26,353 nt of DNA from a virus. The notes beneath the pieces were generated by a model that ran no database searches, was not told the origin of the DNA, and saw only the letters and a list, made by a program, of their open reading frames with translations. Where the stretch lies: positions 1 to 26,353 of IMG/VR virus record IMGVR_UViG_3300013094_000235; one strand, written 5' to 3'. Below, one piece after another: positions 3,709 through 10,833 of this stretch; position 1 is the first letter of the stretch; each line of letters opens with the position of its first letter. The position numbers were made by a program, and so were the translations under genes.

Positions 3709-4053
3709 ATGCCGTACGTAAACAAACCAAGACCTTATCACAAAGAGTACCTACAGCAAAAAGCCCGTGGGGAAGAACCTCGTCGAGCCGAGCGGCAACG
3801 AGCAAGACGTGCGATTGATAAGATGTATCCTGATAAGGATAAGGACAAGAAGGCGGACATCCGTGAAGGTAAAGATGTAGCCCACGTCAAGGCACTTGAT
3901 AAGGGTGGTTCAAATAAGTACGGCGTGTTTATTGAATCTGCAAGCGGTAACAGATCATTTAAGCGTGATGCCAAGAGCAATCTTGTTGCCGAAAAGAGTA
4001 AAAAAGAAAAGAAAGAAATTAAGTTGAGCAAGGTTGTTAAGCTCAAAAAATGA
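3709..4053 (+). CDS. Basic HNH-like protein, 114 aa
   Basis: A GGAGG site 8 nt before ATG 3709 supports this start, two bases after the nuclease stop. The protein is strongly basic (charged head to residue 55, Lys-rich tail from 95). The middle, DVAHVKALDKGGSNKYG with H59, L63, GG66-67 and N69, followed by SGNRSFKR at 79-86, resembles the DHxxxLxxGG...N core of small phage HNH proteins. The first histidine of a classic HNH pair is Ala58, and no zinc-binding cysteines are present, so catalytic activity is doubtful. It may be a DNA-binding derivative of HNH nucleases. Position next to the nuclease fits a DNA transaction role. Confidence 0.55.
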   Translation: MPYVNKPRPYHKEYLQQKARGEEPRRAERQRARRAIDKMYPDKDKDKKADIREGKDVAHVKALDKGGSNKYGVFIESASGNRSFKRDAKSNLVAEKSKKEKKEIKLSKVVKLKK

Positions 4054-4062
4054 GTATAGAAT
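4034..4062 (+). promoter_or_regulatory. Candidate sigma70 promoter before helicase leader
   Basis: TTGTTA (4034-4039) and TAGAAT (4057-4062) are separated by 17 nt. The -35 matches consensus at 4 of 6 bases and the -10 at 5 of 6. It overlaps the end of the HNH-like gene. A transcript starting near 4069 would carry the roughly 170-nt structured leader that precedes the helicase. Confidence 0.35.
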
Positions 4063-4145
4063 AAGTACTGTTTTAGATTGTTCAGGGTCGCCCGAGAGTG
4101 TAAGGTGTGAGTGCATTCTGGGCTTTACGTACCTAAATAACCATA

Positions 4146-4236
4146 CCAGTCAGCACTGCTAATTTCCGGCGGGGAACTGACAAACTAGGCAGAGCATAGC
4201 GGACACCGCTTTTGCTCTGTCAGTGCTTTTCTGGAG
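4146..4236 (+). promoter_or_regulatory. Structured leader with Shine-Dalgarno-pairing helix
   Basis: The 189-nt gap at 4054-4242 holds no convincing gene. Its last part folds by hand into a compact RNA: a hairpin at 4190-4219 (CAGAGCA/TGCTCTG plus AGCGG/CCGCT around an ACA loop), a small TTCC/GGAA hairpin at 4164-4176, and a closing helix AGCACTG 4152-4158 with CAGTGCT 4221-4227. CCAG 4146-4149 can extend this by pairing with CTGG 4231-4234, which overlaps the helicase ribosome site. A competing helix, GTCAG 4149-4153 with CTGAC 4177-4181, would break the closing helix. This suggests a two-state translational control element. No known riboswitch or ribozyme core was recognised, and no energy was computed. 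Confidence 0.45.
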
Positions 4237-4242
4237 AATGTG

Positions 4243-5781
4243 TTGGAAATAATAGACAATAAAGTTTTGCTACTCAATCTGCGTAATCCAAACAAAGTTA
4301 CGACAGTTATACCTAAAAGCAAACAGATTGGTCAGAATAAAGTAGCAGTAAGTTGGGGGCTTGATGAGGCCCAAGTGCTAAAGAACCTACAAATAAAAAA
4401 CATCCCATCACCAATTATGGGCAAGTATCACTGGCCCGGAATGTACAAACCTTTCGATCACCAAAAGACTACTGCATCATTTCTTACTCTTAACCGCAGG
4501 GCGTTTTGCCTGAATGAACAAGGCACAGGTAAGACGGGATCGGTAATCTGGGCGGCTGATTACCTCATGAGCATTGGTAAGATAAGGCGGGTGCTTGTCA
4601 TCTGCCCCCTGTCCATCATGGATTCCGCTTGGAGGGCTGACCTTTTTAAGTTCGCTATGCATCGTACCGTTGACATCGCTTATGGTTCGAGGGAGAAACG
4701 AAACCAGATTATCGCTTCCGATGCAGAGTTTGTCATAATAAATTACGATGGAGTCGATATTGTACAAGAGGCTATATCCAATGGTAAGTTCGATCTGATT
4801 GTGGTCGATGAAGCCAATGCCTACAAGAACGCTCAGACAACACGGTGGAAAACACTTAACCGGATATTGAAACCAGACACTTGGCTCTGGATGCTGACCG
4901 GTACACCTGCTGCACAATCTCCCGTAGACGCATATGGGTTAGCTAAGCTAGTCAACCCGCTCGGAGTGCCTAAGTTCTACACCGCCTTTAAAGACTCGGT
5001 GATGTACAAGATAACACAGTTTAAGTGGGTAGCCAGACCTGATGCTGATAAGGTGGTGTTTTCGGCACTGCAACCCGCCATACGATTCACCAAGGACGAA
5101 TGCCTCGATTTGCCGGAAATGACCTACGTCACACGGGAAGTTGAACTGACCCCCCAACAAAGAAAGTATTACGATCTGTTACGAAAGAAGCTCGTACTGC
5201 AGACCGCCGGGGAACAGATTACTGCGGTAAATGCGGCTGTAGGACTCAGTAAGCTGCTGCAAATATCCTGCGGTGCGGTGTACTCCGATTCCGGCGAGAC
5301 ACTCGAATTCGACATTAAGAATCGGTATAAGGTGTTAAGGGAAGCGATAGACGAAACACAGCAAAAGATCTTAATTTTTGTACCGTTCAAGCACACGATT
5401 GAGCTGTTGTCTGAAAAGCTGCAAGCTGACGGGTTCTCTACCGCTATCATCAGCGGGGACGTACCTGCCACTAAACGTGCCGAGATATTTAAAAGCTTTC
5501 AGGAAACCCCTAACCCCCGAGTGCTGATTATCCAACCACAGGCGGCAGCACATGGTGTAACGTTAACAGCGGCTGATACGGTTGTGTGGTGGGGGCCGAC
5601 ACCGAGTTTGGAAACATACGCACAAGCTAACGCACGGGCGCACCGTGCAGGGCAGCGCCATCCGGTCACAGTCATACGACTGCAGGGGTCAAATGCCGAG
5701 AAACATCTGTACAAAATGCTTGACAATAGAATTGAAGACCATGTAAAGTTAGTTGATCTTTACAAGAATTTGCTTGACTAA
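4243..5781 (+). CDS. SNF2-type superfamily 2 helicase
   Basis: About 512 residues with a full set of SF2/SNF2 motifs: motif I EQGTGKT (about 93-99), Ia LVICPLSIM, II VVDEAN (DEAN, about 188-193), III LTGTPA (about 219-224), IV ILIFVPFKHT, V around HGVTLTAADTVVWWG and VI QANARAHRAGQ. Such phage proteins act on duplex DNA, remodelling or unwinding it during replication or recombination. TTG 4243 is preferred because GGAG (4233-4236) is 6 nt before it; GTG 4240 is in frame but too close. No nuclease, HNH or zinc domain is fused. It follows the structured leader at 4146-4236, so its translation may be controlled. Its stop codon overlaps the -35 of a promoter for the next genes. Confidence 0.92.
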   Translation: MEIIDNKVLLLNLRNPNKVTTVIPKSKQIGQNKVAVSWGLDEAQVLKNLQIKNIPSPIMGKYHWPGMYKPFDHQKTTASFLTLNRRAFCLNEQGTGKTGSVIWAADYLMSIGKIRRVLVICPLSIMDSAWRADLFKFAMHRTVDIAYGSREKRNQIIASDAEFVIINYDGVDIVQEAISNGKFDLIVVDEANAYKNAQTTRWKTLNRILKPDTWLWMLTGTPAAQSPVDAYGLAKLVNPLGVPKFYTAFKDSVMYKITQFKWVARPDADKVVFSALQPAIRFTKDECLDLPEMTYVTREVELTPQQRKYYDLLRKKLVLQTAGEQITAVNAAVGLSKLLQISCGAVYSDSGETLEFDIKNRYKVLREAIDETQQKILIFVPFKHTIELLSEKLQADGFSTAIISGDVPATKRAEIFKSFQETPNPRVLIIQPQAAAHGVTLTAADTVVWWGPTPSLETYAQANARAHRAGQRHPVTVIRLQGSNAEKHLYKMLDNRIEDHVKLVDLYKNLLD

Positions 5782-6554: not shown

Positions 6555-6743
6555 TTGGAAGATATAAAACAGTTTGCGGAAATCCCTACGGAAGTAGCCG
6601 CACAAAAAACAAGTTTGGAAGAAAGGCAATTACGAGCAATGTGCATTGACTTTGCAACACGCATCAAAGAATCTATCCATAACGAAGAAGATTTGATTGC
6701 TATCGCACAAGCCATTTATGATTTTGTAACAGGAGAAAAATAA
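6555..6743 (+). CDS. Small acidic helical protein, 62 aa
   Basis: TTG 6555 is the start: AGGAG (6544-6548) lies 6 nt before it. The product is helical (AEIPTEVAAQKTSLEERQLR; later IAIAQAIYDFVTGEK) and acidic. Its TAA stop shares one base with the ATG of the next gene, so translation is coupled. I do not recognise a family. The tight spacing between the helix-turn-helix protein and the possible ssDNA-binding protein suggests a part in the same replication module. Confidence 0.65.
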   Translation: MEDIKQFAEIPTEVAAQKTSLEERQLRAMCIDFATRIKESIHNEEDLIAIAQAIYDFVTGEK

Positions 6744-7633
6744 TGAGTGAACTGACTCTATTCAAAGGCGGTCTACCCGCATACCTTAAGAACGCATCTG
6801 ATGATACAACCGATGCACTAGCGGGCGGCGACAGTTTAGGTTCACGCCGGTTATCCATTAAAGGTGGTGTGTTCCGTGAGATGATTAACGGTAAGGAATA
6901 CCGTGTATCTGAAGAACGTTCCATGAACATCATCATTATCAAAGCTGCACCTAAAGTTTCCCGCACGTTCTATTCCGGAAGCTATGTAGAAGGTGAAGCC
7001 GTTGCGCCAACTTGCTGGTCATCCGACAGCCAACGTCCTGATGAGAAAGTTAAGGCAGAAAACAAGCAATCAGCCACCTGCTTGAACTGCCCACAAAACA
7101 TCAAGGGTTCTGGTCAGGGTGAGGGTCGTGCTTGTCGTTACCAACAGCGTCTAGCAGTCGTACTAGATGGTGAGGTTGACAAAGAGGAAGTGTATCAACT
7201 CGTGTTGCCGGGTAAGTCTATATTCGGTGATGGCGAGAAGGGTAAACTACCACTACAAGCATACGCTCGTCATCTCAAAAATCATGGCACTCCTATCACG
7301 GGTGTTGTGACTGAGATGCGGTTTGACACAGCAAGCCCTACGCCTAAACTTGTATTCAAGCCTATCCGTCCTGTGACGGAAGATGAGTTCGAGACAGTGA
7401 CCCGTCTTAAGGATTCGCCAGAAGCGATTGCGGCAATCACAATGAATGTTGCACAGACTGACGGTGTTAAAGATAAGCCGAGAGTCGCACCGCAGGAAGA
7501 TCTATTTGAAACGCCTGTAGTTGAAGTAGCTGCTGAAGTAGTTGCCGAGCCTAAGAAAGCTGCGCCTAAAAAAGCACCGGTAGCAAACGAGCCTAGCTTG
7601 GATAGTTTAGTAAGCGAGTGGGATGATGCTTAA
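6743..7633 (+). CDS. Cys4 protein with acidic tail, possible ssDNA-binding protein
   Basis: The 296-residue product has a central region with C91, C113, C116 and C131, a spacing able to hold one zinc ion, set within a beta-rich segment (NIIIIKAAPKVSRTFYSG; YQQRLAVVLDGEV). The C-terminal 60 residues are Ala/Lys/Pro-rich and low in complexity, ending in an acidic segment LDSLVSEWDDA. A zinc-stabilised core plus a flexible linker and an acidic tip is the layout of phage single-strand binding proteins such as T4 gp32, and the neighbours (helicase, primase, polymerase) fit. The sequence itself is not recognisably gp32 or T7 gp2.5, so the function is an inference. Confidence 0.6.
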   Translation: MSELTLFKGGLPAYLKNASDDTTDALAGGDSLGSRRLSIKGGVFREMINGKEYRVSEERSMNIIIIKAAPKVSRTFYSGSYVEGEAVAPTCWSSDSQRPDEKVKAENKQSATCLNCPQNIKGSGQGEGRACRYQQRLAVVLDGEVDKEEVYQLVLPGKSIFGDGEKGKLPLQAYARHLKNHGTPITGVVTEMRFDTASPTPKLVFKPIRPVTEDEFETVTRLKDSPEAIAAITMNVAQTDGVKDKPRVAPQEDLFETPVVEVAAEVVAEPKKAAPKKAPVANEPSLDSLVSEWDDA

Positions 7634-10795: not shown

Positions 10796-10802
10796 CCTCT
10801 TG

Positions 10803-10833
10803 ACCCCCGAGCAATTCGGGGGTTCTTTTTATT
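10803..10833 (+). terminator. Strong rho-independent terminator of the replication block
   Basis: ACCCCCGA (10803-10810) pairs perfectly with TCGGGGGT (10816-10823) around loop GCAAT, followed by TTCTTTTTATT. It lies between the last rightward gene (stop 10742) and the stop of the leftward 2072-residue gene at 10832. The T-rich run is on the rightward side only, so it mainly stops rightward transcription. AAGAACC (10790-10796) can also pair with GGTTCTT (10821-10827), giving an alternative longer hairpin. Confidence 0.85.

Follow-up and report, generated by a model that had tools for sequence, protein, structure and literature searches.

A conserved pseudoknotted leader RNA ahead of the SNF2-family helicase gene of uncultivated aquatic phages

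The helicase locus and a recurring element in its leader

The locus examined here raises the question of whether the non-coding DNA ahead of a phage helicase gene carries an RNA structure and, if so, what that RNA might do for the gene. The window, i.e., the whole stretch of DNA that was analyzed, is a 26.4-kb record of an uncultivated virus, in which positions 4054–4239 are non-coding and lie between a gene for a small basic protein and a gene for an SNF2-family helicase. The latter (4240–5781, plus strand; PF00176, E 6e-22; phrog_62, E 2e-106) is the gene served by the leader. Based on homology and on the spacing to the Shine-Dalgarno sequence (SD), the helicase probably starts at TTG 4243–4245 (plus strand; M-E-I-I-D) rather than at GTG 4240; among 122 loci, the codon homologous to TTG 4243 is ATG in 67, TTG in 43 and GTG in 11. 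The SD itself, GGAG at 4233–4236 (plus strand), is kept among relatives. The 5' neighbor of the leader (3709–4053, plus strand) is a conserved 114-aa protein of unknown function (phrog_4590) without a Pfam match. This small, very basic protein contains a motif, GKDVAHVKALDKGGSN..NRSFKRD, that resembles a degenerate HNH by eye; with weak fold matches (E above 1) and no Pfam match, an HNH identity is not claimed. Further downstream, a 10-bp GC-rich hairpin followed by a T-run (10802–10824), a probable terminator, is located where the early genes of the plus strand and the late genes of the minus strand converge.

An earlier note on this DNA, made from its letters alone, had proposed a two-state RNA switch in the leader. 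A protein search returned 80 viral contigs with the helicase at 69–89% identity, and reading their leaders revealed a recurring motif that starts well 5' of the coordinates in that note. The real feature is an RNA of ~95 nt, hereafter element A (4088–4183, plus strand), supported by a covariance model, a pattern scan and covariation, and the earlier note had covered its 3' half only. With filters off, covariance model R1 scored element A in the window at 71.3 bits (E 6e-18).

A DNA pattern for element A, constructed without the use of the protein, was scanned on 2.9 million viral contigs. The scan returned 117 stretches, all of which (117/117) fit the same motif, and in 116 of them an SNF2 helicase lies downstream on the same strand at a median distance of 70 nt (5–95% range, 20–110 nt). 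The lone exception is L103, in which A is directly followed by other small genes and the contig piece stops 1.35 kb further on. With a looser pattern, further copies at the same locus were recovered together with five stray non-helicase matches (L202, L207, L215, L219 and L226), which were judged to be chance, having neither a helicase locus nor motif context nearby. In two phage groups, the upstream gene ends 620–800 nt before A, and the distance between A and the helicase is still about 70 nt. Judged by its placement, element A is tied in position and orientation to the SNF2 helicase gene, with the fixed 5' position across divergent genomes that marks a cis-leader.

Many relatives keep the helicase without A, and the element is therefore dispensable. 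When the presence of A was mapped on the helicase tree, 13 changes were needed as compared to 32 in shuffles; A is passed on vertically with the helicase but repeatedly lost. A DNA search of cultivated phages gave no match, the two weak hits being short pieces within a coding gene; the leaders of the nearest cultivated-phage helicases (about 40% identity) lack A, and it was not found in bacterial genomes.

Other sequences occur at the same place in the relatives. Four phages that lack A (L031, L033, L063 and L068) carry other strongly folded sequences before the helicase, with a conserved core in common between L031 and L033, as if leader RNA modules were swapped at this position. Sequences resembling the acceptor and T arms of a tRNA, near CCA, were seen in the leaders of some relatives (L025, ~3966–4043; L026), and tRNA-like sequences lie between A and the helicase in L124 and L162. 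Such leaders were not called tRNA by ARAGORN (L025, L026) or by Rfam (L025, L026, L124), and a search for tRNA genes returned none.

Architecture and covariation of element A

The leader of this phage helicase is a real, apparently undescribed RNA structure composed of a pseudoknot plus hairpins. From 5' to 3', element A consists of hairpin P1 with a 14-nt loop, hairpin P3, an AUAA-type linker, the 3' strand of the pseudoknot, and hairpin P4, all on the plus strand. P1 (4090–4123) pairs 4090–4100 with 4114–4123 around the loop TAAGGTGTGAGTG; its register in the window, where pairing was checked, is one nucleotide off the family register. The family consensus of the P1 loop is GU(A/U/C)AGGU..G(A/G)GUG, and the strand (C)CRYACC pairs with GGURYG inside this loop to form the pseudoknot, represented in the window by GGTGTG (4104–4109) and CATACC (4142–4147). 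P3 (4124–4137) is an embedded variable hairpin, TTTA/TAAA in the window, which is identified by its folding energy (mean of –5.4 kcal/mol for 78 distinct segments versus –2.4 for shuffled ones). P4 (4149–4181) has an outer stem (4149–4153/4177–4181) and an inner stem (4156–4159/4169–4172), between which lies an internal loop of CA (4154–4155) facing GGAA (4173–4176). As deduced from the aligned copies, the topology is that of a three-stemmed H-type pseudoknot (P1, the pseudoknot and the embedded P3) followed by P4 with its fixed internal loop. The 5' half, i.e., the P1 hairpin and pseudoknot at 4090–4147, is the most diagnostic part.

In an alignment of 54 sequences, 91.5% of the pair cells form, in contrast to 30–42% with slid partners, and the covariation score is 0.638 versus 0.08–0.14 in the slid controls. 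Covarying pairs among related leaders, which the earlier note had named as a check, were found in P4, P1 and the pseudoknot by an in-house covariation test that takes the tree into account (87 sequences, 3081 column pairs); the best 14 of the 3081 column pairs were all expected contacts. Double changes occur in 9/9 pairs of the family P1, with E 3e-5 for pair 11–28. The pseudoknot strands are paired in 99.1% of cells (54 sequences), with GC/AU and UA/CG/GC exchanges, and the one pair tested gave E 3e-3. Adjacent to it, at the pseudoknot end, an exchange of A.C to G.U (55 versus 32 sequences, no exceptions) gave E 4e-4. For P4, the outer stem GTCAG/CTGAC is paired in 100% of cells with double changes in 4/5 pairs, and the inner stem in 98.6%, bringing the double changes over both stems to 7/9 pairs. 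Within the P4 loop, a C.A/U.G exchange is divided between 71 and 13 sequences, with 3 others (E 0.11). Both exchanges look isosteric in the aligned sequences; an alternative reading of the A.C/G.U signal is a one-step pairing shift at the helix end. Counted over the pseudoknot, P4 and inner stem, G.U cells number 114 and A.C cells 0, an asymmetry that identifies the plus-strand RNA as the selected strand.

The pattern used for the scan fixes some loop letters of A, so that their invariance is partly imposed, and it left P1, the inner P4 stem and the 3' strand of the outer P4 stem largely free. Copies of A from the protein search carry the same loop letters as those found by the pattern. Degenerate copies were also recovered. 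Three of these (L070:4732–4801, L054:4842–4913 and L052:4365–4437) keep P1 and the pseudoknot and have P4 replaced; alongside this divergence, the otherwise invariant U-A pair of the pseudoknot is changed to C-G. A fourth (L038:4822–4929) is weaker overall.

At the gathering cut-off, Rfam 15 gave 0 matches in the window, and permissive Rfam scans of the window, L098 and L082 gave sub-threshold chance matches only. Among open-licence papers, we found no earlier description of element A, and we class it as a new RNA family among the structured leader RNAs, a known kind. The earlier note had recognized a structured, non-coding leader of no known class ahead of the SNF2 helicase, and covariation together with the Rfam search confirms this view.

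Promoter, proposed role and alternative explanations

A sigma70-like promoter, TTGTTA-N17-TAGAAT (4034–4062, plus strand; 9/12 matches, alone not above chance), predicts a transcript start near 4069. Among relatives with a helicase more than 68% identical, a promoter match of at least 9/12 was found in the 120 nt upstream of 63% of the elements, compared to 15% in shuffled sequence, and the –10 mostly ends 7–20 nt ahead of A; in this group, the message would therefore begin with A or shortly before it. The more distant group, with helicases 68% or less identical, has no own-promoter signal upstream of A.

Our reading, to which we assign a probability of roughly 0.6, is that element A represents a new family of cis-acting leader RNAs and is a putative receptor controlling the helicase transcript. 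Transcription from its own promoter would place the element at or close to the 5' end of the helicase message; otherwise it would be transcribed within an operon. Its nearly invariant loops would make up a specific site at which a trans-acting ligand binds. This ligand would most likely be a phage or host protein and less likely a small molecule. Binding would alter how the helicase message or operon is translated or decays, with no direct base-pairing to the SD, which would stay open downstream of a second structure, hairpin B. The scheme starts from a conserved plus-strand RNA in cis, which the comparative data establish, and each later step is one that we infer. We also entertain, as a doubtful idea, that A belongs to a novel class of riboswitches, as their aptamer, or to a novel type of phage RNA receptor, sensing a host metabolite or an infection-stage factor and timing helicase production while the phage replicates.

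Instead of acting as a receptor, A could serve the stability or the processing of the mRNA, at the 5' end or between genes; its compact pseudoknot would block or direct ribonucleases and shield the helicase message. The predicted start sites at the edge of A in the group above 68%, the start of A about 7–14 nt past the upstream stop codon at many loci of the distant group, and the further sturdy stem provided by hairpin B all fit such a function. However, a simple barrier would need neither loop nucleotides that hardly vary nor the paired exchange of C.A with U.G, and we consider this explanation tentative at best. An independent gene for a trans-acting non-coding RNA, with hairpin B as its 3' end and a position before the helicase that is due to chance, seems unlikely. 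Its own promoter in the group above 68% and the gain or loss of A as a module are in keeping with such a gene, but two scans of 2.9 million contigs never placed A anywhere other than at the helicase locus (the five relaxed-pattern strays being judged chance), the other group has no promoter signal, and B is not terminator-like in most leaders.

Hairpin B is a long stem-loop of ~40 nt ahead of the SD (4184–4224, plus strand; –23.1 kcal/mol in the window), and the SD is preceded by a stem of at least 8 bp in 112/122 leaders with A and in 32/49 without A. In the switch of the earlier note, AGCACTG (4152–4158) would pair with CAGTGCT (4221–4227) and CCAG (4146–4149) with CTGG (4231–4234), enclosing a hairpin at 4190–4219 and masking the SD (GGAG), while pairing of GTCAG (4149–4153) with CTGAC (4177–4181) would free it; a second GTCAG (4219–4223) was noted as another partner. 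All of these segments are present at these positions. Taken by itself, the window folds into either the long-range helix (p 0.35) or the P4 stem (p 0.28) at similar energy, and of 32 relatives with a helicase above 80% identity, nine have a long helix of at least 6 bp. Nevertheless, this helix is lost in the rest, it is missing from most relatives that retain all of A, and its mean length over all leaders is 4.4 as compared to 4.1 in shuffles. The helix at 4152–4158/4221–4227 shares bases with P4, and its CCAG extension shares bases with the pseudoknot strand 4142–4147, so that its formation would break the covarying P4 and, via CCAG, the pseudoknot. Moreover, shuffling the leaders makes the SD less open (unpaired 0.57 in the real leaders versus 0.47; 34/49 distinct leaders, p 0.002, in a pseudoknot-free energy model), and three leaders (L016, L017 and L083) lack both hairpin B and the partner strand of the long helix. 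Since the long helix is unconserved, B and the partner strand are absent in some leaders and the SD is more open, masking of the SD is not the mechanism of the family. A base-pairing switch of this kind is quite improbable; at most, one private to the closest relatives of the window may exist. The GTCAG/CTGAC pairing itself holds as the conserved, covarying outer stem of P4 and is not supported as the SD-freeing half of a switch. The energy check named in the earlier note, a fold of 4060–4260, gave –60.4 kcal/mol (z –1.55; 16/200 shuffles as good), which is not decisive alone.

A self-cleaving ribozyme separating messages would agree with the size, the pseudoknot and the about 20 invariant nucleotides of A. 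We hold this to be very improbable, as Rfam gave no ribozyme match beyond a chance hit of Hairpin-meta2 on the window (9.9 bits, far under its 210-bit cut-off), and the promoter-bearing group has almost no transcript upstream of A to remove. A DNA-level structure (a replication origin or a protein operator) or chance complementarity, which the location in a replication module and a folding energy that by itself is near chance might suggest, is already refuted by sequence evolution, since the asymmetry of G.U versus A.C and the covariation of the pseudoknot require a single-stranded plus-strand RNA.

Parallels among known leader RNAs and significance

The nearest functional parallel to element A is the gene 32 operator of phages T4 and RB69, in which a ~28-nt pseudoknot is followed by an unstructured tract of >40 nt with UUAAA/UAAA repeats and gp32 binds cooperatively (PMC535899). 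The two have in common a pseudoknot on the 5' side of the leader, a phage replication gene and an open ribosome site downstream (PMC535899). In contrast, element A is ~95 nt in length with an embedded hairpin and P4, and it precedes a helicase gene, not one for a single-stranded DNA-binding protein (SSB). The unstructured A/U-rich tract of T4 gene 32 is absent here, hairpin B filling the interval in those 112 of 122 leaders, and UUAAA repeats were not seen in the relatives' leaders inspected. The window also encodes a 296-aa protein (6743–7633) whose cysteines are conserved and whose tail is acidic (EWDDA). A search with the model of this protein gave a match to the phiC31 recombination directionality factor in 9teh (E 1.4e-3, prob 0.98) and a weak one to RPA, and a gp32-like role of this gene as SSB is not claimed.

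In topology, the three-stemmed pseudoknots of the preQ1-II and fluoride riboswitches are the nearest parallels, being likewise H-type pseudoknots with an extra embedded hairpin (PMC11262651). Element A differs from both in its additional P4 domain with the CA/GGAA loop and in occurring only in phages before a helicase. Furthermore, the SD of preQ1-II lies in the pseudoknot, whereas the pseudoknot strand 4142–4147 of A is ~86 nt upstream of the SD. In the window, L098 and L082, the Rfam covariance model of preQ1-II gave no match at E up to 10, and neither the Rfam model nor the conserved aptamer core of the fluoride (crcB) riboswitch was matched. The manA and wcaG motifs of cyanophages, conserved structured RNAs found before metabolic genes in several contexts, resemble A in occurring in aquatic phages, within likely 5' UTRs (PMC2864571). 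Element A differs in being limited to one replication gene, and it matches neither model.

These results add to the phages a strongly supported pseudoknotted RNA family that is absent from Rfam 15 and that precedes one replication gene in a large uncultivated lineage of aquatic phages. Few phage mRNA leaders have a conserved tertiary fold, the textbook example being the T4 gene 32 operator. With over 80 distinct natural sequences that carry apparently isosteric exchanges, element A is directly testable.
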